DNA of 47,977 nucleotides from Deltaproteobacteria bacterium (GTDB lineage: Bacteria; Myxococcota_C; UBA6777), in contig PCBK01000096.1 of assembly GCA_002731275.1 (NCBI GenBank), forward strand, positions 1 to 47,977, in the 5' to 3' direction. Within the stretch, counting starts at the first letter, position 1, and every line of letters starts with the position of its first letter. The translations under genes and the position numbers were made by a program. Of the stretch, positions 27,334-46,920 are shown piece after piece. The notes under the pieces were generated by a model. That model saw only the letters and a list, made by a program, of their open reading frames with translations, was not told the origin of the DNA and searched no databases.

Positions 27334-27356
27334 GTCCATATGTGCAATATTTGGAC
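27334..27356. promoter_or_regulatory. Imperfect palindrome in a divergent gap
   Basis: GTCCATAT-GTGCAAT-ATTTGGAC, eight-base arms with one mismatch, in the 27137-27458 gap between divergent genes. Could be an operator. No clear promoter hexamers or RNA gene were found in the rest of the gap. Confidence 0.25.
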
Positions 27357-27458
27357 GGGCTTCGACGTTTCTTCATATTGACAGGGCTGAATTTGGCCTT
27401 TAGTCTCCTTATGTCGTTCATATCCGAGACCTTTTGCCACAAAAGATGTGAGAGTAAG

Positions 27459-30400
27459 ATGACCACAACACAAAAGAATAAGCCCGGTTCACTCGATAAA
27501 AAGGGCATGAGTGATTATACAGAGACACAATGTTCGCGACAGCTGTATATCAAACTTGGCGAACATGACCCTCGTTGGATACAAAGGGATATTCAAAAAA
27601 ATACTCATTTTACAGGTTCAGCCCTGACCCTTGCAGCCTCTGGGAAGCGCTACGAACAAAAGGTCTACACTATTTTGCGTCGCCTCTTTCGTCAACAAAC
27701 CCATTGCACACTCAAGCCACCCGCCAACAAGGAGGTGATAGAGACCTTTCTTGACCCAAGGCTTGCAAAGCGCCTTCACCAAGAGGTAAGAGGAGAGGCA
27801 CAACTCCTCTTGGAATACGAGTGGCCTCTTTGTGATCAATTTGTCAGGCGGGTCTTTGGACAACAACCTGATGAAGAGATCGCTACCCTTGGTAATCAGT
27901 ATGGACGTGTCTTGCGGCCTGATATTATGCTACTCCATCCCATTCCAAAGGGGCAAAAGGCTCCTCTTAAATGTCTACTCCCTGGTGGGAAAGCAGCATC
28001 TTTTTCACCTACAGCGCTTCAAGGACGTTTTGGTATCTCCATTCTCGATATCAAATACACGCCTGATGAGCGGGTTGGACGTCGGCACTTTGCTGAGCTG
28101 CTCTTTTATATCCACGCTCTCACAGAGTGGCTTCACGAGACACAGTTGGATGAATTCTTCTTTGTACCATGTCACGGACACGGTATTCTGGGGTTTCTCG
28201 AAGAGGATACACTCTATGATCTGACTCTCGATGATCTTCTTTGGCGAAGTCCTGACGAACTCTCCGGAAAACATACACCTAAGATCAGCCCGTTGCTATG
28301 GGAAGACACACATCAACTCTTTACCCACGCCGAGAAGACCGTTCGTACACTTTGGCAGCTCGCAAAACAACGAACACCCATCGAAGAGATCCCTCTTTGT
28401 GTACAACCCGCTTGTGGTCGGTGTCCGTTTATCGATGATTGCATTTCCACACTCAAAGGTACAACACCAACGCAGTCTGATAGCTGGGATATCCGGCTCA
28501 TTCCCTATCTCAAGACTGCTGTCGCGCAACAACTCAATGAACATGGTATTTACACTGTTGGTGAGCTATTGCAAGGTATCGAGGAGATTCCACTCGGAAA
28601 CACACCTGTCCCCCTTCATGCTGAGATTCCCGCTCTCAAACTACGGGCACAAGCACTCTCCACACAACGCGCTGTCTATCCCGAAGGCGAGCATACATCC
28701 CTGTCTCTTCCAAAATACATCGATATGGCGCTTGTCTTCAATCTCGAAGTTGACCACACCAACGAACTTGTCTTTGCCTTTGGCTTTTACTTGGACACAA
28801 AACAACCTTCGCCAAAACTCCAGAGATTACACAACGATTGGTGGAGAATGTGGCGTTCTGTGCTCCGAGGGGAAAGGGAGTTACAGGATATCAGCTCTGT
28901 CCTTGACCTCGAAGCGTTGGAGCTTGGATGGCACAAAGGTGATGATTTTTCCGATAAACTGTCGCTTTTACTTCAAGAGATGGAGAGGCTGCTTCGGACT
29001 TTAGAAGCTGATGGTGTTTTGATTCTTCGTGCGGTTGGTGAGTCTTATCAATTTGGTTCACAAGAATACACCACGCAAAAGTATCCTCTTGTACGTTGCC
29101 AGTATAGCTATGTCAGCGGTGGGATTGAGCCAGAGCACGAATATATGTTGCTTAAAAATATGATCCAGCAGCTTCATCGTGTGATGAGAATGTGTTCCTT
29201 GACAGAGCTACTTGTGACGACAAAGCACGAGACTTACGATTCTTTATATCATGAGAACTTCGCGGGGTTTTATTGGTCAGATGAACAAGTCGACCATCTC
29301 CGTGCCCTCGTCGAACGTCATCTCCCGGCACTTCAACAAGATCATGCTCTTTCAAAAACATTCTACGAACTGGTTGATTGGATGACGCCTGCCGATTCTG
29401 GTGTTCGGCACCACGCACTCCATAAGAAAATGTATGATTTACGTGAGTTTGTCGGTTCATCTGTCGGACTCCCACAGATCATCAACTACACATGGCACCA
29501 AACAAGACCTCTGTGGAAGAAAGATTTTGAAGCCAACCCATACTTTTGGACACCACACTTTAACCAGATGGATTTTGGGATCTGGCACAGTACAATCGAA
29601 GAGATCGACACCAATGAACGTTCTCAAAAAGAATCGGATATTCGCGATCAACTTGTCCTGAAGATGAGAACGCTTCACGAGATTTTGCGTCACTTCCACA
29701 AAGAAGCCAGCGACGTTATCCCAAAAGAGTCCAAGACGATGAGCAGTCAGGACTTCCAGCGAGATAGACGCAATCGTCAATATCACCAACTCGGCTCTTT
29801 GTGGCAGGGATACCACCAACTCAACGCGGCGATTAGCGCGCTCACCAATGACGCCGCGCGGTTGACGTGGCCTGAACAAAGTATCGCAAAGTTACAAGCT
29901 GGTAAGCTCTCTGGGATGACCATCAAAATAGATGATCGAGATGGAAAAGACTATGAGGTCGTGAACTTTTCGTTGTTGGGCCTGTCCAGCCATATGAAGA
30001 TCTCCGTGAAAGACCGTGTACTTTTGCTTCCACGCACAATGAGGGACAGTCATGCGTTTCCTTTTCACAATATGGGACGCTTGAGCAAGTTGATCGTCGA
30101 AGACCTCGTCTGGGAGCCTTCCGAGCAGGGATATTGTGTGACCGCCGTTCGTGAACTCAAGAAGCGAAAAGAAGGGGACAAGGAGACACTCCACTCCTTT
30201 ACGGAGCTGTATGCACTCTATGATGCTGAAGATTGGTTTGTCTATCCTACAGATCTGGACGTTTGGACGGGACGCTTGGCATTGAACGGGGATGCTTTGC
30301 TGAGACGATATCAGCTCGGATATTCGTGGTTAGCAGAGCGTTTGATGTTCTTACACGGTTTGGGAGGTGAGCATCTGGAAGCTCCCAAAACACTCAATGT

Positions 30401-32153
30401 GCATGCCGCAGAACTCTACACCTACGCACCACAGTTACTTCCTCAAAAGCGTGATTGTACGGGAGAAGACGTTTTGACTCCCATTCGTTTTCGTCCTGAT
30501 TCATCTCAGCAAGAAGGAATCTTACATGCGTTATCTTCGTCCATCTCATGTTTACAGGGACCACCCGGGACAGGAAAATCACAGACCATCATTGCCCTCA
30601 TCGATGAATTTATCGATCGACATAAAGGTCCAGCGAGAATTTTGATCTCAGCCTTTTCTTACAGTGCCTTGCAAGTGGTCGTGCAAAAGCTGCTCGACAG
30701 TCGCTATGGTGATGGGCCGGCACCAGATCCCACACAATTGAGCGATGCATCGAGATTGCCTATTTTCTATGCTTCGTCCTCTGAATCGGAGAGTTTTGTA
30801 CACGATCCAAATCAACAGGACGTAATGCATTTGTCTTTGTCATCGAAAGGTGTCCATCTAGATGGTGAGCGGATCGATTTTAGGAGGGGATCGAGAAAGG
30901 ATAAAATCTTTGAGCGTATGTTTGCTCACAAGGGGTTGGAGGGGGATGGTAGTTTTGTGTTGTTCGCGAATGCTCATACTTTATATCATCTTGGGACGTT
31001 GAGTAAGGCGAACAAGAGGCGATTGGTGCATGAGGATTTTGGTTTTGATTTGATCATCATTGATGAAGCTTCACAGATGCCAGCGAGTTACTTCACGGCG
31101 ATTGCACAATTCGTTCATCCATTTGAGGCGCGTCTTGTATTGCCAAAAGATGAAGATGCGTTGAAAAGAGAGATTCGTTGTGGTGCACCAGAGCTCTCGA
31201 TTGAAGGTGTGCCTTCATCAGATGACCTGACACATGTTGTCCTCGTTGGAGATCAGGAGCAGTTACCACCAGTCCAGCAGATCGAACCTCCTCGCAAGTT
31301 GAAGCCAATGCTTGATAGTGTGTTTCGGTACTTTTTGGAGGTGCATCATGTCCCGAAGCATCAACTCTCCTACAATTATCGATCACACAAAGACATTGTG
31401 AGATGTGTACGTCGGCTGGCGATTTACGATCAGTTACACGCCTTTCATCAGGATGATGCGTATTTGTCGGCGATTCCAGATGTGTTACCTGATACGATTG
31501 AGGCTCCTTGGTTGCGGCAGTTGTTGGGGCGAAGGCAAGTTGTTTCGACATTGATTCATGGGCGTCAGTGGGATACAGCGTTGAGTCCTTTCGAGGCGAA
31601 GTTGACCGCTGATGTTGTTCTGGCTTTTTTTGCACAGATGGGTGTGGACTCAGATGAACGTGAGCGACAGTTTTGGCAAGAAGACGTGGGGGTTGTGTCA
31701 CCACACAACGCGCATGGTCGCTTGATCGTACGTGAGATTGCGGAGCGTCTGTTATCGGGAGTTGGGGCGAGGACCTATCTGCCGGAGACAGAGTTAATGG
31801 AGTGTTTGTCAACAACTGTGTATTCTGTGGAGAAGTTTCAGGGTTCGGACAGGCGTTTGATTGTGGGGAGTGTGGGTGTGTCTTCGGTGGATCGTTTGGC
31901 GGCGGAGGAAGGGTTTTTGTACGATATGAGTCGCTTGAATGTTCTGATCTCTCGTGCAAAACACAAGATGTTGTTGATCTGTAGCCAGCAGTATTTGGAT
32001 TACGTTCCACGGGATAGGGATGTGATGACCGTCGCAGCTCGTGTGAGAGAGTATGCCTACGATTTGTGCAATGAGAGTCAAGTGTACGATGTCCCCTTTG
32101 GTTCGGGGAGTGAGTTTATCGAGTTGCGTTGGATGGTCTCCAAAGATCCATGA
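27459..32153 (+). CDS. RecB/Cas4-like nuclease fused to SF1 (Dna2-type) helicase
   Basis: A 1564-residue DNA-processing enzyme. N-terminal PD-(D/E)XK nuclease: PD in LRPDIMLL near 152-154, DIK in SILDIKYT near 196, and a Cys cluster C314/C319/C322/C328 (CVQPACGRCPFIDDC) like the Fe-S cluster of Cas4, AddB and Dna2. C-terminal SF1 helicase: Walker A GPPGTGKS at 1034-1041, Walker B IIIDEAS with D1202, motif III VGDQEQLPP, motif IV/V regions (LSYNYRSH; STTVYSVEKFQGSD; NVLISRAKHKMLLI). The layout matches the TM0106-type RecB nuclease-helicase fusions. ATG at 27459 has GAGAG upstream; an ATG at 27507 and a longer frame from 27342 are alternatives. It converges on the hipA/hsd run. Likely a defence or repair helicase-nuclease. 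Confidence 0.85.
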   Translation: MTTTQKNKPGSLDKKGMSDYTETQCSRQLYIKLGEHDPRWIQRDIQKNTHFTGSALTLAASGKRYEQKVYTILRRLFRQQTHCTLKPPANKEVIETFLDPRLAKRLHQEVRGEAQLLLEYEWPLCDQFVRRVFGQQPDEEIATLGNQYGRVLRPDIMLLHPIPKGQKAPLKCLLPGGKAASFSPTALQGRFGISILDIKYTPDERVGRRHFAELLFYIHALTEWLHETQLDEFFFVPCHGHGILGFLEEDTLYDLTLDDLLWRSPDELSGKHTPKISPLLWEDTHQLFTHAEKTVRTLWQLAKQRTPIEEIPLCVQPACGRCPFIDDCISTLKGTTPTQSDSWDIRLIPYLKTAVAQQLNEHGIYTVGELLQGIEEIPLGNTPVPLHAEIPALKLRAQALSTQRAVYPEGEHTSLSLPKYIDMALVFNLEVDHTNELVFAFGFYLDTKQPSPKLQRLHNDWWRMWRSVLRGERELQDISSVLDLEALELGWHKGDDFSDKLSLLLQEMERLLRTLEADGVLILRAVGESYQFGSQEYTTQKYPLVRCQYSYVSGGIEPEHEYMLLKNMIQQLHRVMRMCSLTELLVTTKHETYDSLYHENFAGFYWSDEQVDHLRALVERHLPALQQDHALSKTFYELVDWMTPADSGVRHHALHKKMYDLREFVGSSVGLPQIINYTWHQTRPLWKKDFEANPYFWTPHFNQMDFGIWHSTIEEIDTNERSQKESDIRDQLVLKMRTLHEILRHFHKEASDVIPKESKTMSSQDFQRDRRNRQYHQLGSLWQGYHQLNAAISALTNDAARLTWPEQSIAKLQAGKLSGMTIKIDDRDGKDYEVVNFSLLGLSSHMKISVKDRVLLLPRTMRDSHAFPFHNMGRLSKLIVEDLVWEPSEQGYCVTAVRELKKRKEGDKETLHSFTELYALYDAEDWFVYPTDLDVWTGRLALNGDALLRRYQLGYSWLAERLMFLHGLGGEHLEAPKTLNVHAAELYTYAPQLLPQKRDCTGEDVLTPIRFRPDSSQQEGILHALSSSISCLQGPPGTGKSQTIIALIDEFIDRHKGPARILISAFSYSALQVVVQKLLDSRYGDGPAPDPTQLSDASRLPIFYASSSESESFVHDPNQQDVMHLSLSSKGVHLDGERIDFRRGSRKDKIFERMFAHKGLEGDGSFVLFANAHTLYHLGTLSKANKRRLVHEDFGFDLIIIDEASQMPASYFTAIAQFVHPFEARLVLPKDEDALKREIRCGAPELSIEGVPSSDDLTHVVLVGDQEQLPPVQQIEPPRKLKPMLDSVFRYFLEVHHVPKHQLSYNYRSHKDIVRCVRRLAIYDQLHAFHQDDAYLSAIPDVLPDTIEAPWLRQLLGRRQVVSTLIHGRQWDTALSPFEAKLTADVVLAFFAQMGVDSDERERQFWQEDVGVVSPHNAHGRLIVREIAERLLSGVGARTYLPETELMECLSTTVYSVEKFQGSDRRLIVGSVGVSSVDRLAAEEGFLYDMSRLNVLISRAKHKMLLICSQQYLDYVPRDRDVMTVAARVREYAYDLCNESQVYDVPFGSGSEFIELRWMVSKDP

Positions 32154-32245: not shown

Positions 32246-33493
32246 TTATTCGCCACGGAGGAGGCGAAGTCGCTTCCAGTGTTGTTTCAAGGCTTGCCTT
32301 GCCTCCTCATCCAACCTCAATGTTCCTTCCAGTTGACGCCAAGCGTCCATCATTTTGCTCACAGTGTTTTGGACAAATGCTTTGATTTCGTCTTCTGGTT
32401 TTGTGATACCGATCTTTTTGTAGAGTCTTACAAATGAGGCTGAGGTGACTTTTTCCCACTGTTTTTTTGAGCGTTTGTCAAAGTTAAGTGCGAGATCCTC
32501 GTTTTCAAAGAAAGAGAGGGTTGAGACAAAATCATAGGCTGGCGAGAGCCTTGCTTTGTATCCGTCGGGGTAAATGAGAGCCCAATTCTTGAGGTGAGCG
32601 TCACCGTTACCGGAAAGGATGATGAAGATGACTCGGCGAAGGTATTCTTCCAAGTCATCCTCGGATTGGGTGATGGAGGAGATTATCCTTCCAATGGATA
32701 AGTAGTTTCCTTTTTTGAACGCGCGTTCTGGGTAAACATTTAAGATTTGAGCAAAGTCTTCGAAGTGAATACGTCTTGGGTTCTTTGAACGGTCGAATCG
32801 TTCGATTGCATAGGCCCATTGTTCATCGCCAAAAAAACTTTTCTCTGGTAAACCCTTAATCTCATTGAGATCCAGCAATAAAAAATCTGGAACATCGATA
32901 CCACTTTCTCTAGCCCACGTCATCATAGACCATTCATTCTCTGGGACTCTGGGAAATTTCTGTCCCGGAAGTTTGATAATCCAATCGCCTTGGACACCCT
33001 CTCGTGGGATCGTGAGCCCCTTGCCCTCTTTGAATGCCGATAGCTTGAGTTGTAGGTTCGTCATCGAGAATTTATGGGGATTGTCTTCTGGTGCTGTGGA
33101 TTCTTCCTCTTCAAACGTGTTTGTCTCTTCATGTTCGTATTGAAGGAGGTCTTGGAGTTCTGTCTCTTCGGCAACGACTCTCACTGCACCTGGAAGTTCC
33201 TCTCCCAAATGAGCCAGCAGGGAGAAATCATTGTCGATATCTGTTTGGAGTTGCTTGATGATAAGCTCCCTCAGCAATCCATCAGGGAGTAGGTTCGAAA
33301 ACCACTCAGGGAGTCGTGAGCGTGAGCTATGGACTTTGTGGAGATCCTCGATAAAGACCTGGCCAAGAACAGGTCGGGGGTAGAGTTTTTTGTAACTTTC
33401 CAACAAGCGAAACTCAATCCTACTTCCGTCTGATAGGGTTAATCTTCCGACTTTTGTGTCTTGTATGTACACAACCAAGGTGTGGGAGTTCAT
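32246..33493 (-). CDS. HipA-family Ser/Thr kinase (toxin-type)
   Basis: A 415-residue HipA-type kinase. N-terminal subdomain 1-105 (VGRLTLSDG ... WFSNLLPDGLLRELI), then the P-loop segment KFSMTNLQLKLS with S143 at the place of the autophosphorylated serine of E. coli HipA, K174 in DWIIKLPG, catalytic GNGDAHLKN with D298 and N303, and metal-site D321 in SPAYDFV. All active residues are kept, so kinase activity is expected; HipA phosphorylates glutamyl-tRNA synthetase, but the target here is unknown. An acidic insert lies at 115-140. No HipB-type helix-turn-helix gene is next to it. AGGAAAAG precedes ATG 33493. It aligns with the first 410 residues of the upstream neighbour, so the two are tandem paralogues. 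Confidence 0.85.
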   Translation of the reverse strand: MNSHTLVVYIQDTKVGRLTLSDGSRIEFRLLESYKKLYPRPVLGQVFIEDLHKVHSSRSRLPEWFSNLLPDGLLRELIIKQLQTDIDNDFSLLAHLGEELPGAVRVVAEETELQDLLQYEHEETNTFEEEESTAPEDNPHKFSMTNLQLKLSAFKEGKGLTIPREGVQGDWIIKLPGQKFPRVPENEWSMMTWARESGIDVPDFLLLDLNEIKGLPEKSFFGDEQWAYAIERFDRSKNPRRIHFEDFAQILNVYPERAFKKGNYLSIGRIISSITQSEDDLEEYLRRVIFIILSGNGDAHLKNWALIYPDGYKARLSPAYDFVSTLSFFENEDLALNFDKRSKKQWEKVTSASFVRLYKKIGITKPEDEIKAFVQNTVSKMMDAWRQLEGTLRLDEEARQALKQHWKRLRLLRGE

Positions 33494-33676
33494 GTTCTTT
33501 TCCTATGCCAAGTTGTTTATTTAGTAGCCTGTAAAGTGTTATTGGTGCTCAAGTAAGTAATCTGAACGGATATTGTGTGAATGTTGATGTCTAAGCCCTC
33601 GTTTTTATGACGTTACTTTTGGGTTCGTTTGTGTGTTTTTTCTCCACTTTCTTTGGGATACTCGCGACGCTTTTGA

Positions 33677-35962
33677 TCAAGCATCCTTTTGAAAGGGAAC
33701 ACAAACGAATTGTATCCAGTCTTCGTCATGGCTACCTATTATTTTTTGAATACGCCATACTTGCGAGTCTTCAAAGCGGACAAGAGAATCACCTTCTCTA
33801 AAAGAGGCTGAGTACTCTACTTGCCAAAGTCTCTTGTCTAGTTTGACTAGATCGTAAGCCCTTATAATTTGCCCACGAACGCTGTAAAGGACTTCTCGAT
33901 CCATAAGGACTTGGACGGTTCGTTTGGTGCTTGTCTGCTCTCCAACAAGTTTTCCCCAATGTGAATGGTTCGTAGAGAGTACAACTTCTTCAAATCTTTC
34001 TTCTTTTTTTACGATGTTTTCGGTGTGAACAACACGTAAAGGTATATACTCACTAGGTAGATTGCGGTCCTCACTTAAAGTGAGCATGTCCCAATCGTCT
34101 ATGTTGTTGGAGAGAGGTCCTTTGGGGTCTAATTGCTTAAGGAAGTCTCTAAAAGGAAAAGGCAACCCTCGAAGATATAGCATCGTCCAAGGTTCCTTTT
34201 TTAGAAAAGCATACGATCCTCTTGTGAGATTTCTGTTGGCAAATTCTTGATACGGACCATGATGGGCTCGCCATTTTCTTGTGTTTACATCGAAAATAAG
34301 TGCAAGAGTTTTTTTCTCCGAAGATTCTCCTTTTCCAGATAACAGCTGTGTACCAGCTAATGCACCGACCAGTAAACCCACGAGGATCCCCGCAGGACTC
34401 GTTTTCAGGATCACTGAAGCAGCAGCGCCTAACACCGCACCTGTTAAAGTCTCCCCTGTAAGTGGACTGCTTTCATCGTCGTTTGCAAGGCTAAAACGTG
34501 CGATGTTGGATTCCTCATCAATGGCGATGTTTAGGAGTTTTCCACCAACGAGAGCTCTCAGTGATTGATCTTCTTGTTTTCGTAACTCGATGGGCGATGA
34601 GTCCTTTGTGAGTTCGTACACTTCATTCGCGAAGACATCCAGGTAGTCATACTCATTCTTGTATTTGTTGAGTACTTTGGCGATATCGCTTAGACGAAGC
34701 TGTGTCGGGGGTCGAACCCTCTCCTTCATCAATGGGATAGTTCCCCAATGTACACGAAGACGTTCTTTTGCTTCTTCTTCTAGGGGCAAGTCATCTTCTA
34801 GTGTAGACCATGCTGTCATTATTTCAACGACTGTATTTTCTATGAAAATTTTGATCTCGTCTTCTGTTCTCTCCTCAAGGAATCCCAAAGATTGAAGCTT
34901 TTGAAACATTTTCACAAAAGAGCGAGCTGAGACATCTTCCCACCGTTTGGACTTTTGCAAGTTGAGCGCGAGTTTATCGTTGTGAATGTATTGGATTGTT
35001 GAAACAAAGTCGTAAGCAGGAGAGAGGCGGGCCTTTACATTGTCAGGGTAAATCAAAGACCAATTCTTGTGGTGTGCGTCGGCATTGCCTGAAAGGATGA
35101 TGAAGAGCAGTCTCCGAACGTATTCCTCAAAGTCTTTCTCAGAGTTTGTCACTGCAAGCAGGATCTTTGCGATGGAGTTGTAACTGAACTTGTCGTATTT
35201 TTCCTGGGGATACAGACCAAATATCTGGGCAAAATCTTCAATGTGAACACGTCGTGACGGTTCAGGACGATCAAAACGTTTGATTGCGAAGGCGAGTTTT
35301 TCTGATTTGTGAAGATGTTCTGGAGGCAAACCCTGGATATCGTCCGTATCAAAGAGGTCGAACTCAGGTACATCAATGCCACTTTTTTTGGCCCAAGTCA
35401 TCATGGACCATTCGTTTTCTGGTACTCTCTTGTATCTTTGATCTGGTAACTTGACGATCCAGTCGCCACCAATTCCCTTTGCTGGTATTGTCAGACCTCG
35501 ATCTTTTCGAGATGCTGAGAATTTGAGTTGTACACCTGCGAGAGAGAACCTCAGCGTCTGAGCATCTTCCTCTTCCTCTGTTGCCATACCATCTGTAGAG
35601 TTCTCTGTGTGTTGGTAAAATCCTTCAAGGGGTTGCTCTGGTAGGACACGTACAGCTCCGGGAAGATCTTTGCCGAGATGATGGAGCAGAAAGAATTCTC
35701 GCTCTGTGTGAACTGCTGCTTGCTTGGCGACGAGCTCTCTCAACAAACCCTCTGGAAGGAGGTTGGAAAACCAGGGGATGAGTCTCATTCGTGTTCGGTA
35801 TTCTTTATCGAGATGATCAAGGAAGGTCTGTCCCAGTGTGGGGCGTGGGACCATTTGTTTGTAGCTGTCCAACAGTCGAAACTCGATTTCGCCTTTCTGG
35901 GACAGGGTTAATTTTCCGACAGGTTCTTCTTGCAAATATACAAACATTGTTTTGGTAGACAT
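33677..35962 (-). CDS. HipA-type kinase fused to a glycine-zipper segment and novel C-terminal region
   Basis: A 761-residue fusion. Residues 1-410 are a complete HipA kinase: P-loop serine S140 (FSLAGVQLKFS), GGDWIVKLP, catalytic GNADAHHKN with D295 and N300, and D318 in SPAYDFV. Residues 410-500 are a helical linker. About 505-540 is a Gly/Ala-rich hydrophobic stretch (GAVLGAAASVILKTSPAGIL and VGLLVGALAGTQLL) like a glycine zipper, which could cross or perforate a membrane. Residues 545-761 are soluble, beta-rich and unknown to me. ATG at 35962 follows the DUF262 stop by 3 bases, with the GAGGA of the preceding Asp/Glu tail as ribosome site, so the two genes form an operon. A TTG at 35968 is an alternative start. 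Confidence 0.82.
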   Translation of the reverse strand: MSTKTMFVYLQEEPVGKLTLSQKGEIEFRLLDSYKQMVPRPTLGQTFLDHLDKEYRTRMRLIPWFSNLLPEGLLRELVAKQAAVHTEREFFLLHHLGKDLPGAVRVLPEQPLEGFYQHTENSTDGMATEEEEDAQTLRFSLAGVQLKFSASRKDRGLTIPAKGIGGDWIVKLPDQRYKRVPENEWSMMTWAKKSGIDVPEFDLFDTDDIQGLPPEHLHKSEKLAFAIKRFDRPEPSRRVHIEDFAQIFGLYPQEKYDKFSYNSIAKILLAVTNSEKDFEEYVRRLLFIILSGNADAHHKNWSLIYPDNVKARLSPAYDFVSTIQYIHNDKLALNLQKSKRWEDVSARSFVKMFQKLQSLGFLEERTEDEIKIFIENTVVEIMTAWSTLEDDLPLEEEAKERLRVHWGTIPLMKERVRPPTQLRLSDIAKVLNKYKNEYDYLDVFANEVYELTKDSSPIELRKQEDQSLRALVGGKLLNIAIDEESNIARFSLANDDESSPLTGETLTGAVLGAAASVILKTSPAGILVGLLVGALAGTQLLSGKGESSEKKTLALIFDVNTRKWRAHHGPYQEFANRNLTRGSYAFLKKEPWTMLYLRGLPFPFRDFLKQLDPKGPLSNNIDDWDMLTLSEDRNLPSEYIPLRVVHTENIVKKEERFEEVVLSTNHSHWGKLVGEQTSTKRTVQVLMDREVLYSVRGQIIRAYDLVKLDKRLWQVEYSASFREGDSLVRFEDSQVWRIQKIIGSHDEDWIQFVCVPFQKDA

Positions 35963-35964
35963 CT

Positions 35965-37599
35965 TCAATCATCCTCATCTTCATCATCGTCATCATCTGC
36001 GAGTAATGATAGTAAGCTTGGGCGGTCTGTTTCTCCCCACCGTGCGCACTTTGCGAAAAATTTTCTGCTGTACTCTTCAATGGTTTTTGCACGAAGTTCG
36101 AGGAAGGTCTCTTCGTCGCCATCGCGAAGAGCTTCCAAGGCGTCCAGATCGATCATGTGAGTTTGTAGCAAAGCAGGATTGGCTTGGAGTATTTGTTTTT
36201 TGAGTTGTTTTTGTTTGGGGTAGAAGATGCGGTTGGCAATGCCATTGTAGTGCTGGAGGTTTTTATCTTGCACAAGTGTTGGGATGAGCAAGTGTCCTGA
36301 TGGTGTTGTGTCGAGTGAAGAGGGAAGGATGAGTTTCTCTGTCTCCAGGTTCTTCGGCTTGTGTGTGAATAAGGCCAACGTGAACAATTTACTTGTTGCG
36401 TGGTTAAAGCGGAAGGGAGCATCGATATCCAGCAAGGCCTCTTCGTTTTCGGGGAGTTGTTGAAGGAGCGATTGTACAGAGGCTTCTTCATCCTCAGAGA
36501 TACTTCCCAAGTATGCAGGTTCTGAGAGCGTAAAATTCCGAAGTGCTTTCGTGAGTGAGAGACGCCATAGCCATCGACTGAGTAAGTCGGTGCTCCTTGA
36601 TGAAGGAGAGGGATGGTGGTGAAAGAATTTTGCGAGAAATACGAAGGGTTGTTTGTAGGGAAGTAGGTCAAAATGTGGGATGTGAGCGTGACTCTTTAAA
36701 AAACCTATCGTGCGTCGTGTTGCCTCTTCGACGTTTGTATATGCCTCAAGTGCTTTCTCGCTGGTCAGTTTTTGTTCACTGGAGACAAACTTCGTTTTCT
36801 TTTGGCGTCCCAAGAGTGCGGACATGACTTTATTGAGTGTATCTTGGGGAAGTTCGCCAAAGCCAAGGGGACGGAGATTTCGGGAAATATCATCAAAGCT
36901 ACCTGACGACTCCTCACTTGTCGTGCTGTGAATGGCATCAAAGACTTCTGATTCTTCGAGGCTTTTTCCTGCATGGTTGATGCGAGCAAAAACATCACGG
37001 ACAGTTTTTTCAGAGGTCGTGGTAATCGTGTAAGTCGGGATTTCATACTCACGAATTCTTTTCCCGACTCGTATCGCTTTTTGTGTTCTTGTGGGGCTGG
37101 GTTGCTTTTTATAGAGCCACTGCAGCAAGTCTTCTGAGTCAAGCACTTGCGTCATTGGGAGCCAGCGTGTAGGGTCATCTGTTCGTTGTTTTTGAGATAT
37201 ATTTTTGAGGCCTTCCTCATCCAGGTCAAAGTAGAAGTCGTGTTTGTTTCCTTTGTGTTCTTTGACAAGGGACAGGACAAGGGAGACGAGGCGTTGTTGT
37301 CCATCAACTACCCAGAGCGCGTCTGCTCGTTCGGGGACCTCTATTGTTAACTCTCCGGCTGTAAAGATGTCTGCTTTTGCTGGTGTTTTCCAAAAAATCA
37401 ATGTTCCAACTGGATACCCTCGGTAAAGGCTGTCGAGCAGGTTGAGAGCATCTTGTGGTTCCCACTTAAGCTGTCTCTGGAAAGAAGGGATCCTTATATA
37501 GCCATCTTCGACCCTGCGAATAAGATCCTCGACTTTGAAATTTCGAGCCTCAGGGGGTCTTTTTAGATTGTCTGTTTGCTCATCTCGTGTCAGTTGCAT
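35965..37599 (-). CDS. DUF262 (ParB/Srx-fold) protein
   Basis: A 544-residue DUF262 protein. ATG at 37599 has AGGAAG upstream. Family marks are IPSFQRQLKWEPQDALNLLD at 37-56 with LYRGYPVGTLIFW after it, and VVDGQQRLVSL at 97-107; the DGQQR motif is the NTP-binding/cleavage motif seen in GmrS- and DndB-like proteins. The C-terminal half is helical and lacks the HNH (DUF1524) nuclease that completes GmrSD, and it ends in a run of Asp/Glu (DDDDDEDEDD). It sits first in an operon with the HipA fusion gene. Role in phage or plasmid defence is inferred from the family and the neighbours. Confidence 0.85.
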   Translation of the reverse strand: MQLTRDEQTDNLKRPPEARNFKVEDLIRRVEDGYIRIPSFQRQLKWEPQDALNLLDSLYRGYPVGTLIFWKTPAKADIFTAGELTIEVPERADALWVVDGQQRLVSLVLSLVKEHKGNKHDFYFDLDEEGLKNISQKQRTDDPTRWLPMTQVLDSEDLLQWLYKKQPSPTRTQKAIRVGKRIREYEIPTYTITTTSEKTVRDVFARINHAGKSLEESEVFDAIHSTTSEESSGSFDDISRNLRPLGFGELPQDTLNKVMSALLGRQKKTKFVSSEQKLTSEKALEAYTNVEEATRRTIGFLKSHAHIPHFDLLPYKQPFVFLAKFFHHHPSPSSRSTDLLSRWLWRLSLTKALRNFTLSEPAYLGSISEDEEASVQSLLQQLPENEEALLDIDAPFRFNHATSKLFTLALFTHKPKNLETEKLILPSSLDTTPSGHLLIPTLVQDKNLQHYNGIANRIFYPKQKQLKKQILQANPALLQTHMIDLDALEALRDGDEETFLELRAKTIEEYSRKFFAKCARWGETDRPSLLSLLADDDDDEDEDD

Positions 37600-37782
37600 C
37601 TTCTTCCTCGCAGCTGAAAGACCAAGACCACTTGTACAGTACAACGAGCATACGTAATGACAAGTTCGGTCGCAAGGCAGAAGTTCTCGCCCAAAGACCC
37701 CATCAAGTCAAGAACCCAATTTCCACAAATCTTTACAAAGAGATCGCTTGAGTTGGAGTCCTTGCAAGTCACCATTGTATTT

Positions 37783-40700
37783 TTACGTCAGGACACGGAC
37801 AAGCTCGGCGATGATCGTAAAGTCACCTTCCTTGGAGGCATCCAACACGATCGGTTGAAAAGATGGATCTGTTGAATCTGGAGACAAGGTCACCTTTGTA
37901 TGTCGCCAACTCCCGTCTTCTGTCTTCTCCTTCTCGCTCGAATAACGTTTGACTGTGTAGCTCCCTCCGTATTCGTTGTCTTCGATGTCTCTGTGTTGGC
38001 AGAGTATCGTCTTTCCTTGACGTGTCCCCGATGGATTGAGACGCCACAAACACCACGATCCATTCGGGATACTCCTGTTCATTGACTCACCAACAACCTG
38101 CGCGACAAACAAATCCTTCGCCGGTTTGGGGCGTCCTTCTGTACGGACCCAATCGTAATGTGCCACGTCTTCCATCTGCTCCGGGGTAAAGCCACCCGCT
38201 GCGAACTTGATATCCAAGGCTGGAATGCAATTGACAAACGGCTCTGCCTCTTCCAATAGGACAGATACAAATGGGAGCAAATCACCTTCTTCTGTCAAAG
38301 GTTTGTGGCTGACGTCTTCTGGGACAGCCTTCAGCTTTTTGACCAACATATCGAAAACAATCCGTTGGAATCCCGATGAGACCTTCTTGTCATTCAGGTA
38401 TTGGATCATCTGATTTTGGTGGGCCTCCGCGCTGTCAATCACCGCCTCATCCATCGCGTTTGCAAAATTACCAAGCATCGCCTGCTCTGGTGAGTTGTTG
38501 GCGATTTGTTGCATCACCGCCTCATTCTCACTCAACTTGTCGCTAATCGTCTTGGCGTAATTGAGCAAATCCTGGTCCGTCAACTCATCTGTGATGAACA
38601 ACTCATTTAACCTGTCGAGGATCGTCGAGAGCCACTCCTCTTGCTTGTCTCGCGCCTTCCCTGTCCCAAGCTCCTTCATCGGCATGAGCCCTGTCGCGCC
38701 GTCCTTTTTGAGCTTGAGATTCTGTTGTCTGATCTTTGAGAGCCTGTAATGACTCAACTCCACGGAGCTCAGATCGACAGGGTCTTCATCCGGCAATTGC
38801 TCACGCAAAAGAGGCGCGAGATGCATGGCGAATAGATTCAAGCGCTCCAGATCCGGACTGTCGTACTCGACGATCTGTGACATGAACTCGTAGTAACGAG
38901 TGAAGGAGTTGAGATCCGCCTTGAAGATGCCAAGTGTATCAAGGAGCTTTTTGGCCTCTTTCATGTCCGATTCAATGTTCGCAAGGAGCGTGAGGTCGTC
39001 GAACTTCTTGGCGCGATCAAAGAGTTCCTTTTGTTTTGTGTACTCTTCACGGGCAGCTTGTGAACGCTTTTGCCAACGCTCCACTGCCGGGCGACAAGCG
39101 TTGAGAAGCGCTGCGTTACTCTGCTGCTTCTTGAAGAAGATCTCGTTGAACGTCAGCACCTCTGTCCACTTGAAGATCCCTGCATCCCTGAGCTTGTCGT
39201 ACAAGTCCCACAAAATGTTGGGATCCGAAACGTCCAACAATGTCGCCGTCTGGTAGTACTCCTGGAATGCCTCCAGTACACTCTGTGGTTCATTCACAAA
39301 GTCCACAACATAGGTCTCTTTTTTGCCTGGGTAGATCCTGTTGAGGCGGGAGAGGGTCTGTACACATTCCAAGCCGCCAAGTTTTTTGTCGACGTACATC
39401 GCACATAGTTTGGGTTGATCAAAGCCGGTCTGGAACTTTTTGGCCACGATCATCACGTTGTACTCTTCTGTGTCGAATGTCTTGCGAAGTGTACGGCCTT
39501 TAAGCCCTGGATTCATCGATGTCTCTGTGAACTTATGTCCAATCAAACCTTCAGCCTCTGGATCTGAAGGCTGAAAAGAGACCTCTCCAGAGAAGGCGAC
39601 GAGCGCTTGGAGGGAGGATTCGTACTTTTGTTGTTTGACGTACTTGTCGATTTGGTCTTTGTAGCGGACGGCTTCCTTGCGCGAAGAAGTCACGACCATC
39701 GCCTTGGCCTGGCCGTTGAGCAAACCCATGACATGTTCACGAAAGTGTTCGACGATGACGTGGACCTTTTGTGAAATGTTGTAAGGGTGCAGTCGAAGCC
39801 ACTTACCGAGCTTGACCCTGGCTTTTTTGACGTCTACCTCAGTGTCTGCGCTGCCTGCTTTTTGTCCTAACTGATAGGCGAGCTTGTACGTCGTGTAATT
39901 TTTGAGAACGTCAAGGATGTAACCTTCTTCGATCGCCTGTCTCATACTATAGATATGGAAGGCCTTGGGCTTGTTTGTCTTTGAAGGTGGTAGCGCTGGA
40001 GCGGGGAGGCGTCCAAAGAGTTCGAGGGTTTTGCTTTTGGGGGTCGCCGTGAAGGCGTAGTAGCTCAGGTTGGTCGCTTGTTGACGTGCTGCGACGCTGG
40101 CGTTGAGCTGGTCTTCTGCGGTCTGCTCTGCGTCCTCGTCTTCTGTGGCACCCTTTGTCAGGACAGCTTTGAGTTTGCCAGCTGTACGTCCTGTCTGTGA
40201 GGAGTGGGCTTCGTCTGCGATGATCGCGTAACAACGGTCCTTGAGGCTGACATTGTGCTCGATATTGTCGAGGACGTACGGGAATGTTTGGAGCGTCACG
40301 ATGATGATAGGTTGTTTCTCTTCGAGTGCGCGTGCGAGCTTCTCTGACTTGGAACCTTGTCCTTCATCTCTGTTGATACGTTCGACGACACCGTCAGCGT
40401 GTTCAAACTGGTAGATGGTGTCCTGAAGTTGTTTGTCGAGCACAGTCCTGTCCGTGATCACGATAACGGAGTCGAAGACCTTTTCGCCTTGTGCGTCGTA
40501 GAGTGAGGAGAGTTGGTGTGCGGTCCACGCGATGGAGTTTGATTTTCCTGAGCCTGCACTGTGTTGGACGAGGTAGCGATGTCCAGGACCTTCTTGTTTG
40601 GTCGTCGCGATCAACTGTGTGACGAGTTCGAGTTGGTGGTATCGTGGGAAGATGAGTGTTTCTTTTTTGCGTTTGAGACCGTCCCAATCTTCTTCTTCTT

Positions 40701-41574
40701 CGATCTCCAGGTGGACAAAGTGTCCGAGTAGTTGGAGGAGCTGTTCGGGGGCGAGGACTTGTTGCCAGAGGTAGGCCGTCGCGTATGTGTTTGGGTCTTG
40801 GGGGATGTCGTTGCCAGCACCACCATCGGATGTGCCTCTGTTGAAGGGGAGGAAGCGCGTGTTGTCTCCATCGAGCTTTGTGGTCATGTAGACTTCGAGC
40901 TGGCTGACGGCGAAGTGGACGAGGGCACCTCTCTTGAATGTGAGGAGGGGTTCTGGTTTGTTTGTGTTTGGGTCTTTGGGGAGTCGTGTCTTTTTGTATT
41001 GTCTGATGGCGTTGTGGACGGCCTGTTGGAATTCGCTCTTCAACTCCATCGTCGCGATGGGGAGTCCATTGACAAAGAGGACGATGTCGATCCGCCATTT
41101 CTTCGCTTGTGTGCCAGTCTCTGCGAGGTGTGCTTTGGTTGCGTATGGGCTGTAGGTCAGCTCAGGGACGAGGCGGAGGATATTGCCTTCGTACATGGCG
41201 AGTGTTTTGGAGTTGAGATTGTGTTCGGGTTTGAATTGGCACAACTTGAAGGAGGCGGATTTATCTCGCAGTTCGTGTCGAAGGACGCCGAGTGTCCCGT
41301 ATTTGCGAAGGGTCTTGTCTGTGGCGTGTGGATCGACTTTGTTGAGCTGTCTGGTGAGTTTTTTGATGAAGGCTTCTTCGGGGTTGTTTGGGTAGAGTGT
41401 GGTGTATTTTTCCCACATCTTGGGTTGTGTGCTTTGGACGAAGGCGAGGCAATCTTCTGTGTAAAGTGCGTGTTCTCGGTCGTAAGAAGAGGCGTTTCCG
41501 CGCTTCCATCCAGCGGCGAGCATCTCTTGGATAATGTCTTGCTGGAAGGCGGCTTCGTGGGCTGTGTTGCTCAT
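37783..41574 (-). CDS. hsdR: Type I restriction endonuclease R subunit with C-terminal S24/LexA-like domain
   Basis: Motor and nuclease subunit, 1263 residues. ATG at 41574 has GAGGAGG upstream and overlaps the hsdS stop. PD-(D/E)XK nuclease near 150-180 (RIDIVLFVNGLP, then MELKSEF), Walker A HSAGSGKS near 335-342, DEAH box IIADEAHSSQTG near 450, motif III TATP, and RecA2 motifs to about 790. The last 150 residues do not belong to ordinary HsdR: LFVAQVVGESMNRSIPNGSW with S1164 and SYTVKRY with K1209 match the Ser-Lys dyad region of LexA/UmuD/CI-type S24 peptidases. The spacing, 45, is wider than LexA's 37. This could be a damage-responsive self-cleavage or docking module. Confidence 0.9.
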   Translation of the reverse strand: MSNTAHEAAFQQDIIQEMLAAGWKRGNASSYDREHALYTEDCLAFVQSTQPKMWEKYTTLYPNNPEEAFIKKLTRQLNKVDPHATDKTLRKYGTLGVLRHELRDKSASFKLCQFKPEHNLNSKTLAMYEGNILRLVPELTYSPYATKAHLAETGTQAKKWRIDIVLFVNGLPIATMELKSEFQQAVHNAIRQYKKTRLPKDPNTNKPEPLLTFKRGALVHFAVSQLEVYMTTKLDGDNTRFLPFNRGTSDGGAGNDIPQDPNTYATAYLWQQVLAPEQLLQLLGHFVHLEIEEEEDWDGLKRKKETLIFPRYHQLELVTQLIATTKQEGPGHRYLVQHSAGSGKSNSIAWTAHQLSSLYDAQGEKVFDSVIVITDRTVLDKQLQDTIYQFEHADGVVERINRDEGQGSKSEKLARALEEKQPIIIVTLQTFPYVLDNIEHNVSLKDRCYAIIADEAHSSQTGRTAGKLKAVLTKGATEDEDAEQTAEDQLNASVAARQQATNLSYYAFTATPKSKTLELFGRLPAPALPPSKTNKPKAFHIYSMRQAIEEGYILDVLKNYTTYKLAYQLGQKAGSADTEVDVKKARVKLGKWLRLHPYNISQKVHVIVEHFREHVMGLLNGQAKAMVVTSSRKEAVRYKDQIDKYVKQQKYESSLQALVAFSGEVSFQPSDPEAEGLIGHKFTETSMNPGLKGRTLRKTFDTEEYNVMIVAKKFQTGFDQPKLCAMYVDKKLGGLECVQTLSRLNRIYPGKKETYVVDFVNEPQSVLEAFQEYYQTATLLDVSDPNILWDLYDKLRDAGIFKWTEVLTFNEIFFKKQQSNAALLNACRPAVERWQKRSQAAREEYTKQKELFDRAKKFDDLTLLANIESDMKEAKKLLDTLGIFKADLNSFTRYYEFMSQIVEYDSPDLERLNLFAMHLAPLLREQLPDEDPVDLSSVELSHYRLSKIRQQNLKLKKDGATGLMPMKELGTGKARDKQEEWLSTILDRLNELFITDELTDQDLLNYAKTISDKLSENEAVMQQIANNSPEQAMLGNFANAMDEAVIDSAEAHQNQMIQYLNDKKVSSGFQRIVFDMLVKKLKAVPEDVSHKPLTEEGDLLPFVSVLLEEAEPFVNCIPALDIKFAAGGFTPEQMEDVAHYDWVRTEGRPKPAKDLFVAQVVGESMNRSIPNGSWCLWRLNPSGTRQGKTILCQHRDIEDNEYGGSYTVKRYSSEKEKTEDGSWRHTKVTLSPDSTDPSFQPIVLDASKEGDFTIIAELVRVLT

Positions 41575-42932
41575 GATGCCTCCTCTTCGGTGTGGGTGGG
41601 TGGTTGCCAATCCCTGACGTCTATCTTACCTGTGACGGCTGCGGAGATGAGCGCTGTGCGTCGCTCTTGCAGCAATTTGGTTTGTTGCGTCAAGTCCCGA
41701 GCCAACTTTTCAAAATTGGAATGTTGTTTTTGTAGATGAGTAGCTATTTGCGCTTGTTCTCTTTGAGGAGGGATACAAACAGAAAGTGTTTTAAGGGTAT
41801 TCTGACTCAAAGATGCCCGAGTTACCAGGTTCATTTTCTCTGTGAAAGAACTCTGGATTAGCTTGTTCCTGAAGAGAAAAGAAGAGTAAACCGGATCCAA
41901 ATCGTCAGACCAAGGCCTGAATCTAATCAAAAAGCCAGCGAAAGTTGCATCTTCGACTCTTTGTAAACATGTTGATGCTATGCCTATGTCGTCGACTGTT
42001 TCGGATGTTCTGGTGAAAAAAACATCACCTCTTTCTATGCTGTATTTTTTCTGATCTTCTTTTGTGCTGCGAACAAGTCCACTTGGATTGGACGGTATGA
42101 ATTGGTTTTTATAAACATCTCCATAGCTTATGAATGGAAACCCTGAACCAAAAGAGTCTCCACTGATATTCAAGCCATTTTGCAGTTGTCCAAAGTGTCC
42201 CAGCTTTTTGATTTTCCAATGGGCAGGAATCTCACCAATCCAGGGGATGCCGGAGTCGCGCATGGGGGCGTCGGGGTTCAAGCCTTTGGTGACGGCGTGG
42301 CTGATGACGGCCTGACGTTTCTCTTGAAGCAATTGGATGAGCTGTTGTTGTTTTTCAATCAAGGCATCGATTTTGGCTGTTTCGTAATCGAGAAACTTTG
42401 CGATTTGTGTTTGTTCATATGGAGATGGAAGCAGTAATTCAATTTGTTCGAATGCTTTTGGATCCAAATCCCATTGGTTGACGCGAATACCCTTGGAGCG
42501 ACTCATATATTGAGTTATGTAAATTGGTGAGCGTAACAAGTAGTGAATGTACTTTGATTTTATCCTTGTACATTGAACTTTTTTTATTTTTTCATAGACA
42601 AAGTATGCAGGGCTGACGATTCCTCGGTAGCAAGAAATTGCTATGGAACCTTGCCATGCTTTCATTTTGTTCATAACTAAATTTTCAGGACATACTAGCT
42701 GGTATGGACTGAGATCCTCGGAAGGTTTGTTGAAGTTGTCATCGCGGCTTTTTTTGGGAACAACACCGTGATCTCGGTAAACCGAAAGCAATTCTTCATG
42801 GGGGACGTTTGTACGTTTTACCCTGCGATATATTCGTCCTACTGGGATACTATCCCAGCCTAATGGAATGTCTTCCATCCAACTCGCTGTTGGTTTTTTA
42901 TATCGCTCATATTTTTTGAATGCATTTTTCAT
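41571..42932 (-). CDS. hsdS: Type I restriction-modification specificity subunit S
   Basis: DNA-recognition subunit, 453 residues, with the usual two target-recognition domains. TRD1 is about 15-180 and opens with WMEDIPLGW; a conserved helix follows ([20 protein letters not shown] and [20 protein letters not shown]) and then TRD2 from about 230, opening with [18 protein letters not shown], and a second helix ([20 protein letters not shown]). The half-repeat implies a bipartite target. It overlaps hsdM upstream and hsdR downstream by 4 bases each. TRD sequences are A/T-richer than the flanking genes, as is common when specificity cassettes are exchanged. The target site cannot be predicted. 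Confidence 0.92.
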
Positions 42933-45292
42933 GAGCGAATCTCCTGCAACATCTGCATGATCTCTGCGCTCAACACATCCAATTCTGCGTCGATCTCCTC
43001 CAGTGGCCTTGGAGGTTCATATTCATAAAAATGCCTGTTGAAGGGGATTTCGTATCCAACGACACCAACACATCTATCCTTCCCATCTGTGTACTCAGCA
43101 TCAATCCAGGCGTCTTCGACATGTGGCGAGACTTCCTTGTGGAAATACGCCTCGTTGACCTCATCGACACCAGAACCCATCGCTGTATCTTGTGTCAGTG
43201 GGACATCTTCATGATCCCGTAGTTGGCTGTCCGCTTGGAAGAGCACAACCTTTCCTTTGTATGAAAAGAGGCCATATGTCGGATCTGCTTCTTCCTTGAC
43301 GATTTTTTTGATCACAGGTTCAGCGTCTGGGTTCGTCCAGGTCACGGCAGAGATGAATTGCTTTTTCTGCTTTGCATCGAGCTTTGCATCTGCGTCCTTG
43401 AAGGCTTTCTTCAACTGTTTATCAAAGTTGTTGAAGTCGTTGTATTCTTCTGTGCCAAGGACTTTTTGTAGTTTGTACGCTTTGTCGAGAAGTTCTTTTT
43501 GTGTGTGCCATATTTGGGGGTTGAGGAGTTCTTTGATTTGTTTCTCTTTCAGCTCCTTGAAGTCCTTCTTGAGCAGGCTGCGGACATCATCTTCAACGTC
43601 AGAGAGGACGCCATATTGTTCGTCATCCCAATCTTGTCCATATGCTTCGTAGATGGTTTGCATAGCGGCGTTCTGTTTACCTGTGACAAAGCGAAGTTCT
43701 TCGAGGCGTTCGTCTGTAAGCTGTGCGGAGAGACGAAGAGGGCGCTCGATGCGGATGCGACGATAGCCAAACTCATAGGTGTGGAAGATCTTGCTGGCGA
43801 AGGTTTTTTTCTCGGCTTTTTTGCTGGAGGAGCGGTCTCTTTGTGATGTGGTCTCTTCGGGGGGGACCAGTTCGTAGCTCTCGACCTCTTCAAATTTGCC
43901 ATAGGTTTGGGTGATGAGTTTGATAGCGTCATCATTGATTAAGCGTCTTTTGGAGCCGAGGCTTTTTCTCATGCCTTGGTAGAGGTGGACGGCGTTGATG
44001 AGCTGGACTTTGCCTTTTTTGTCGTTGTCTTGTTCGGTTTTTTTGTCGTTGTCTTGTTCGGTTTTTTTGTTGGAGAGCACCCAGATATAGGTCGCGATAC
44101 CTGTGTTATAGAACATATCAGTAGGTAGGGCGATGATGGCTTCGAGCAGGTCACTTTCGAGAACGTACCGGCGTATCTCACTCTCTCCGCTACCGGCTGA
44201 GCCTGTAAACAGAGGGGAGCCGTTGAGGATGATACCAATGCGACAGCCGTTCTTTTTGTCGTCATTGGGGTCAAATTCACGCATCTTGTCGAGCAGGTGC
44301 ATCAAGAAGAGGAGGGAGCCATCACTGACGCGGGGAAGTCCGGGGCCAAAGCGTCCATCAAAGCCTTTGACTTTGTGTTCCGTCTTGATGGCGCTCTCGA
44401 CTTTCTTCCAGTCCACACCAAAGGGAGGATTGGAGAGCATATAGTCGAAGGATTCGCCGGCGAGTTGGTCATCACTCAGGGTGTTCCCGAGTTTGATACG
44501 GCTGACATCCTGTCCTTTGATGAGCATGTCGCTTTTGCAGATGGCGTAACTTTCGGGGTTGAGTTCTTGTCCAAAGGCCCTCATGACAACGTCTTCATTG
44601 TATTCATGGACGTATTCCATTCCAGCGGAAAGAAAGCCGCCTGTTCCTGCGGTTGGATCATAGATGGTGCGTATTATGCCGGGTTGGTTAAGGGCCTCTT
44701 CATCTTTTGTGAAGAGGATGGATGTGGTGAGGTCGATAATATCGCGAGGTGTGAAGTGTTCTCCGGCGGTTTCGTTTGAGCTTTCGGCGAAGCGTCGGAT
44801 AAGTTCCTCGAAGACGAGTCCCATATCGTGGTTGCTGATGGTTTCTACGGAGAGGTCTGTGGTGGAGACTTTTTGGACGACTTTGTAGAGGAGGTTGGCT
44901 TCATCGAGGAGGTCGACGAAGGTGGCAAAGTCGAAGTATTCGAAGATCTCTCGTGCGTCTTTGGAGAAGCTGTCGATGTAGGAGAGGAGATTACTCTTAA
45001 TGTCTTTGCTGCCGAGCTTGGAGAGGTTCATTTGTGATGTATTAAAGAAGGTTTGATCGGCTGCTTTGAGAAGGATTGTCTCACGTGCGTCTTCGTTGAG
45101 TGAGGTCATTGCCTTGAGTGTTTCGACTTTTGCGAGGACATTGTCTTTGGTGGGTTCAAGGACACATTCAAGTCGTCTGAGTACGGTGAATGGGAGGATG
45201 ACACGTCCATAGCGTGATTGTTTGAAGTCGCCACGAAGGAGGTCTGCGAGAGACCATATATATGCGGCTGTTTGGGAGAAGTTGGTGGTCAT
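42929..45292 (-). CDS. hsdM: Type I restriction-modification methyltransferase M subunit
   Basis: N6-adenine methyltransferase, 787 residues, longer than the usual 500-550. ATG at 45292 has AAGGA upstream. An N-terminal helical domain ([19 protein letters not shown]) is followed by the SAM site DPTAGTGGF near 211-219 and catalytic NPPF near 287. The extra length comes from a charged insert near 410-427 (KKTEQDND twice) and a C-terminal 250-residue region with coiled-coil-like helices. It is the first gene of hsdM-hsdS-hsdR, which read leftwards with ATGA overlaps at both junctions, so the enzyme subunits are co-translated. Confidence 0.92.
44017..44064 (-). repeat. 24-bp perfect tandem duplication in hsdM
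   Basis: Two identical 24-base copies (TTTTTGTCGTTGTCTTGTTC plus GGTT) encode the doubled KKTEQDND in HsdM. In frame, so copy number changes would alter linker length without breaking the gene. T-tracts of 6-7 flank it. Confidence 0.85.
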
Positions 45293-45549
45293 CGAGGTGT
45301 CCTTTGTGCGGGGAGTGTGTCTACGTGTTGCAGGAGCAGGTATGTCTTTTGGTTCTGTGTCAAAAGAGAATTGTGTTTGTTGCCAACTTTTGTGACCCAT
45401 GTGTGTGGCTGGCTCCTGTCGTCTTCTTGTACATCGTGCTGGGGATTGTTGTACCGAAGTCGGTCAGCGAAGTCAACTTCCACTTGCCCTGTGGCTGCCG
45501 CGCTTCGCTTGCCTTTGTCTGGCTACCACGCTTCGTTTGATTCTGCTTG

Positions 45550-46695: not shown

Positions 46696-46786
46696 GTTCT
46701 TTGTTCCTGCTGTTTGTGGGATGTTTGTGGGATGATGATCGTTGTACCCAAGATTATACATTGGGTCAAACCTGCAGCCTGACAAG

Positions 46787-46920
46787 CAGAGCGCGGCAGT
46801 CACGCCGAAGGCGTAACACAAACGATGCGCGAGCATCGTGGGGGCTGGGGTTGAACAAACCCCAGGCGGGTGTGGGTGGCAAACCCACAATACCAAGCAA
46901 AGCGCGTCAGCAAGGGCGAG
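46787..46920 (+). repeat. Mosaic hairpin repeat, copy A
   Basis: Modules in order: AAGCAGAGCGCGGCAG, CGCCGAAGGCG, hairpin ACGATGC-GCGA-GCATCGT (46822-46839), hairpin GGGGTT-GAACA-AACCCC (46847-46863), hairpin GTGGGT-GGCAA-ACCCAC (46872-46888), then AAGCAAAGCGCGTCAGCAAG and GGCGAGTGG. It is the plus-strand counterpart of 18860-18926. It fills the gap between the DUF4268-like and sfsA-like genes. Confidence 0.78.

Follow-up and report, generated by a model that had tools for sequence, protein, structure and literature searches.

A DUF262 protein without an HNH motif forms a conserved two-gene operon with a HipA kinase, which it may control

The DNA analyzed here, referred to as the window, is a stretch of 47,977 nucleotides from a Deltaproteobacteria bacterium (GTDB lineage Myxococcota_C; UBA6777; assembly GCA_002731275.1, contig PCBK01000096.1, positions 1 to 47,977). 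As evident from Table 1, the open reading frames and their Pfam matches gave the minus-strand order hsdM-hsdS-hsdR, followed by genes for a DUF262 protein, a HipA kinase with a C-terminal extension (HipA1) and a second HipA (HipA2). A HipA fusion and a tandem HipA paralogue downstream of hsdMSR had been proposed from the letters alone (the sequence-only reading), and this arrangement was confirmed. The sole above-threshold Pfam match of the DUF262 protein was GmrSD_N (6.5e-29). Couple_hipA plus HipA_C were found twice (2.8e-50 and 4.5e-47), and no HipA_C genes other than these two copies were found in the 10.75-Mb genome. The DUF262 stop and the HipA1 start (...GATGATTGAAGATGTCT...) overlap by 4 nt if translation begins at TTG or are separated by 2 nt if it begins at ATG, close enough to the 3 bases counted previously. 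The intergenic gaps at the locus measure 184 nt (between the hsdR stop and the ATG of DUF262, both on the minus strand), 2 nt (or the overlap), 183 nt, and 92 nt. They are too short for a hipB gene, and neither the open reading frames nor Pfam revealed an HTH HipB antitoxin beside the window HipAs; the gene upstream of HipA1 is that for DUF262. Thus, the stated lack of HipB was correct. A scan of the locus for promoters and terminators returned sites no commoner than in shuffled sequences.

Table 1. Genes and domains of the DUF262-HipA locus and the neighboring restriction-modification operon
Feature	Position in window	Strand	Remarks
hsdM	42929..45400	(-)	Pfam HsdM_N/N6_Mtase; neighbor
hsdS	41571..42932	(-)	Pfam Methylase_S; neighbor
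hsdR of complete type I R-M operon	37783..41610	(-)	Pfam HSDR_N/SWI2_SNF2; neighbor, outside the conserved pair
DUF262 (GmrSD_N / COG1479-like)	35965..37644	(-)	559 aa from TTG at 37644; 544 aa from ATG at 37599
HipA1, HipA kinase with C-terminal extension	33677..35968	(-)	763 aa from TTG; alternative ATG at 35962
HipA1 parts			residues 1-416, full HipA (Couple_hipA + HipA_C); residues 417-763, extension (347 residues)
HipA1 extension, distal ~200 aa	33680..34282	(-)	domain also found N-terminally in a PtuA-like AAA ATPase (paired with PtuB) of a sister genus
HipA2, tandem HipA paralogue	32246..33493	(-)	415 aa; Gly-rich loop changed, catalytic residues intact

The locus sits amid defence-type genes. 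Convergent with HipA2 lies a gene for a 1603-aa AAA_11/AAA_12 helicase (27342-32153), which matches PADLOC MkoA/DpdJ/PDC-S37 and is likely another defence gene. The gene upstream of hsdM (45724-46896) encodes a DUF4268 protein and may be a nuclease-like member of this island. Within HsdR, residues 1010-1094 match PADLOC PDC-S15, and residues 1137-1268 form a C-terminal Peptidase_S24-like stretch (E 0.0015, below the Pfam cut-off).

The window DUF262 protein carries the motifs QR (residues 56-57), DGQQR (residues 114-118), and FxxxN (residues 219-223), which have been described for modification-dependent enzymes (PMC12137116). DGQQR was kept in all 27 DUF262 sequences examined, and QR and FxxxN were kept in nearly all of them, with single departures. 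An AlphaFold2 model of the window protein (mean pLDDT 83) was closest to BrxU (Z 15.0 over 449 residues), followed by SspE (Z 9) and DndI (Z 8.6), with ParB domains behind these at Z about 5; its C-terminal half aligned to the C-terminal domain of SspE with a Z score of 9.2. In GmrSD-type enzymes, DUF262 is believed to act as the sensor of modified DNA and to switch the nuclease through binding and hydrolysis of NTP (PMC12137116, PMC10952713). The type IV systems GmrSD, BrxU, SspE, and GrwAB share the three motifs and the overall fold with the protein studied here, but they possess a DUF1524 His-Me nuclease (residing on GrwA in GrwAB), whereas the window protein yielded no DUF1524 match or motif and is partnered by a kinase. 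An HNH motif was likewise found in none of the 27 DUF262 sequences. With the same Pfam model, a genuine GmrSD_C was detected elsewhere in the genome, at C177, and the model is therefore able to detect DUF1524 when it is present. The earlier description of a DUF262 protein without its HNH partner was accordingly upheld.

Further DUF262 loci of the genome are a full GmrSD with DUF1524 (G000:C177:70729-72486) and a DUF262 gene beside a PDC-M55A gene (G000:C23:95707-98516). PDC-M55 was considered as the identity of the pair, given that the PADLOC model PDC-M55C matches the window DUF262 protein from end to end (8.7e-65). However, the only PDC-M55A of the genome lies at C23 beside that other DUF262 gene, no match to PDC-M55A/B was obtained among the window proteins scanned with PADLOC, and the assignment was rejected. 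A partial match of the DUF262 protein to PADLOC NsnA was also seen.

Both HipA proteins retain their catalytic residues. The catalytic residues N, D, H, K, and N (N-D-H-KN) and the Mg-binding D (SPAYD) were invariant in 25 aligned HipAs including both window copies, and the core model of HipA1 superimposed on Escherichia coli HipA (3tpb) with a Z score of 32.6 (357 residues, rmsd 3.0). HipA1 has its catalytic aspartate at D297 and its Mg-binding aspartate at D320 when numbered from TTG; the catalytic residues named before, D295 of HipA1 (counted from ATG) and D298 of HipA2, were right. Like the HipA proteins of hipBA, hipBST, HipL/HipN, and other Hip families, the HipA here is a full-length kinase that has the couple domain at its N-terminus and retains every kinase motif. 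In HipA2, and in HipA2 alone, the Gly-rich loop is altered: FSMTNLQLKLSA replaces FSLAGVQLKFSA, and the glycine of the loop is gone (FSMTNLQ). The HipA2 branch of the HipA tree is also longer. The altered loop and the longer branch imply that HipA2 may be weakened, and it is possible that it is a weakened kinase or a regulator of HipA1.

The extension of HipA1 (residues 417-763) gave no above-threshold Pfam match, no plasmid match, and no viral match, and its AlphaFold2 model was of low confidence. It had been described as membrane-active-looking. A Gly/Ala-rich hydrophobic hairpin is indeed found at residues 511-545, with a Kyte-Doolittle maximum of 1.89 that is marginal for a membrane segment. 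The hairpin is not confidently modelled (pLDDT about 40-45, AlphaFold2), and a membrane activity is therefore only suggestive. Relatives were found for the distal part of the extension only. The last ~200 residues of HipA1 show similarity to the N-terminal region of an AAA_21 ATPase from a sister genus (28% identity overall and 43% over 67 residues), and the same accessory domain seems to have been attached to two different defence-type proteins in this lineage. The PtuA-like AAA ATPase gene (L044:7359-10024, G001:C70) is followed by a gene for a PtuB HNH protein; NCBIfam NF041761 was matched above its curated cut-off. A second fragment of the tail domain, about 32% identical over 133 aa, occurs in the genome of the window organism outside any clear gene (L045:6085-6600, G000:C41).

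When DUF262 was used as the only query against some 85,000 species genomes, 27 relatives of 29-47% identity were recovered from Pseudomonadota, Ignavibacteriota, Myxococcota, and Actinomycetota; this number is a lower bound, because the scan depends on short conserved peptides. A HipA frame, identified by profile, lay directly downstream of DUF262 in every one of the 27 loci, and the DUF262 stop and the HipA start abut or overlap in nearly all of them. Pairwise identities of the DUF262 and HipA proteins were correlated with r = 0.96 (276 pairs from 24 loci), a value to which shared phylogeny contributes and which would be expected of genes that travel together. The view that the two genes are chance neighbors has nothing in its favor beyond the local variation in the third gene. 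Linkage in 27 of 27 independent loci over four phyla, touching frames, and parallel divergence leave this explanation with next to no probability, and we regard it as already refuted by the linkage. In most proteobacterial loci (e.g. L006, L013, L014, L018), the codons of the acidic C-terminal tail of DUF262 include a GAGG stretch that resembles a Shine-Dalgarno site for HipA; the position of this stretch at the 3' end of the gene is consistent with translational coupling to HipA.

The pair also occurs on plasmids. Two Azospirillum plasmids carry DUF262 (42%) and HipA (51%) as an isolated two-gene operon, with unrelated genes on either side and without hsdMSR. More distant plasmid DUF262 proteins, related at 25-28% over the N-terminal half only, were not beside HipA; therefore, the linkage belongs to the DUF262 subfamily of the window. 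The Ignavibacteriota DUF262 protein is 81% identical to that of Azospirillum, which suggests that the pair was transferred or that the contig was mis-binned. In the sister genus of the window organism, the pair is degraded, with a broken DUF262 frame and a HipA that is cut short. This damaged pair adjoins a RAMP-superfamily cluster that is type III CRISPR-like (L043:10031-18526, G001:C44). A viral origin was considered and rejected: DUF262 relatives were absent from viral contigs, and phages gave weak N-terminal matches at most.

The sequence-only reading had treated DUF262, HipA1, and HipA2 as a three-gene cassette downstream of hsdMSR. The DUF262-HipA part of this order recurred in all 27 loci and on both plasmids, whereas the exact three-gene order was not conserved. 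In the other loci, HipA comprises about 400 residues; neither the length of HipA1 nor a tandem copy was present in any of the 27, and the three-gene cassette was rejected as a unit. Neighbors of the 27 loci are varied and mostly metabolic, and no recurrent third gene appeared in the 25 commonest families listed for their 101 nearest neighbors. The cassette could, in principle, serve the type I restriction-modification system beside it as an accessory, providing back-up killing when restriction fails or an anti-restriction alarm. The closeness of hsdR on the same strand and the enrichment of GmrSD relatives near type I restriction-modification genes (PMC4619093) speak for such a role, but tblastn of the flanks of the 27 loci found no homologue of the window Hsd proteins. 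We regard this explanation as very improbable; hsdMSR was rejected as a constant partner, and a tie to it was not supported. The core unit is therefore a stand-alone two-gene operon, DUF262-HipA. The hsdMSR neighborhood is peculiar to the window, as are HipA2 and the C-terminal extension, which are local additions to the pair in this genome.

In the HipA tree, the DUF262-linked kinases cluster together (two label changes, compared with a mean of 8 after shuffling). HipA1 and HipA2 are sisters (support 90/91) and nest in a clade of 17 HipAs that is exclusively DUF262-linked (support 99/95). In the closest HTH-linked HipA genes, the HTH gene (HipB) lies upstream, in exactly the slot taken by DUF262 here. 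This position speaks for the main rival of a sensing switch, namely a plain type II-like toxin-antitoxin module. Here DUF262 would be the antitoxin in place of HipB, and perhaps an autoregulator, and the pair would stabilize replicons or confer stress tolerance without sensing phages. Besides the slot, the two plasmid copies fit such a pair, and the ParB-like fold of the DUF262 model might allow DNA binding. At most of the 27 loci, the flanks consist of varied housekeeping genes rather than defence genes; this leans away from sensing and fits a toxin-antitoxin module equally well. On the other hand, an enzyme-like DUF262 protein of 530-560 aa with strictly kept NTP motifs exceeds the needs of a simple antitoxin, and its best relatives are modification-dependent restriction enzymes. 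That the NTP pocket is so strictly conserved tips the balance somewhat towards sensing. Sequence data cannot separate the two readings, and we consider the toxin-antitoxin pair the less probable one, though a serious contender.

HipA is the classic persistence kinase, and in E. coli it inactivates glutamyl-tRNA synthetase. Against this background, the pair is most economically read as a sensor with a kinase effector; this idea had been put forward earlier and is kept for the conserved two-gene unit, though not for a three-gene cassette. We propose, at about an even chance, a sensor-controlled growth-arrest switch in which DUF262 restrains or licenses HipA and senses foreign DNA, and HipA arrests the cell. 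DUF262 would take the position of HipB and probably bind HipA, either keeping it inactive or being needed for its activation. The ParB/Srx-like NTP pocket formed by QR, DGQQR, and FxxxN would sense foreign, probably modified, DNA. The conformational change that fires the built-in HNH nuclease in GmrSD, BrxU, and SspE would here act in trans and license HipA, a Ser/Thr kinase. Phosphorylation of a translation factor by HipA, with a tRNA synthetase as the probable target, would then stop growth, and the infection would abort. The constant pairing over four phyla and on two plasmids argues for this switch; that the viral contigs and phages searched held no copy pointing to an arms race argues against it. 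Control might also run in the reverse direction, with HipA phosphorylating DUF262 or its partners and thereby governing DNA binding or restriction. HipA-family kinases do autophosphorylate and act on proteins, and the obligate pairing is symmetric and gives no direction, but no recognizable nuclease motif is left in DUF262 to be controlled, and we rate this alternative as improbable.

The growth-arrest switch has partial precedents. In HipAD (DS-6), a HipA kinase is encoded with a DUF3037/DUF1829 protein, phage protection depends on the kinase, and the authors favored a toxin-antitoxin-like abortive infection (PMC13092281). HipAD resembles the present pair in combining a HipA-family kinase with a partner other than HipB, but that partner is DUF3037/DUF1829, whereas here it is DUF262 and Pfam detected no such domain. 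Conversely, DUF262 proteins without DUF1524 stand beside other effectors in Menshen, Dazbog, and PD-T4-2 (PMC10952713) and in the putative ptuXYZ (PMC11980606); the effectors in these systems include an OLD nuclease and a BECR RNase, in contrast to the HipA kinase found here. In view of these systems, the earlier wording of an abortive-infection type not known was overstated. A hipBA module differs by its adjacent HTH HipB, and the ten Hip gene organizations of Gerdes 2021, a survey that favored DNA-binding partners, include none with DUF262 (PMC8262856). No earlier description of a DUF262/GmrSD gene paired with HipA was found in the literature searched, largely open-access papers. We conclude that the two genes form a unit, strongly evidenced as such, and probably one little-described switch, which would most likely act against phages.

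Taken together, and with a confidence somewhat short of even, the pair may represent a widespread immune switch that has not been named. In this switch, the NTPase half of a type IV restriction enzyme, which senses modification, would have lost its nuclease and come to control HipA, leading to phosphorylation and growth arrest; the lineage of the window organism would have added a second, possibly weakened HipA and a tail domain that a Septu-type ATPase shares. If this is true, a conserved operon that ties HipA to a sensor of DNA modification would give HipA a concrete trigger, and the set of HipA partners would grow beyond the ten surveyed organizations and HipAD. A restriction sensor would have been re-used to drive a kinase, so that foreign DNA, once recognized, would lead to the phosphorylation of proteins.
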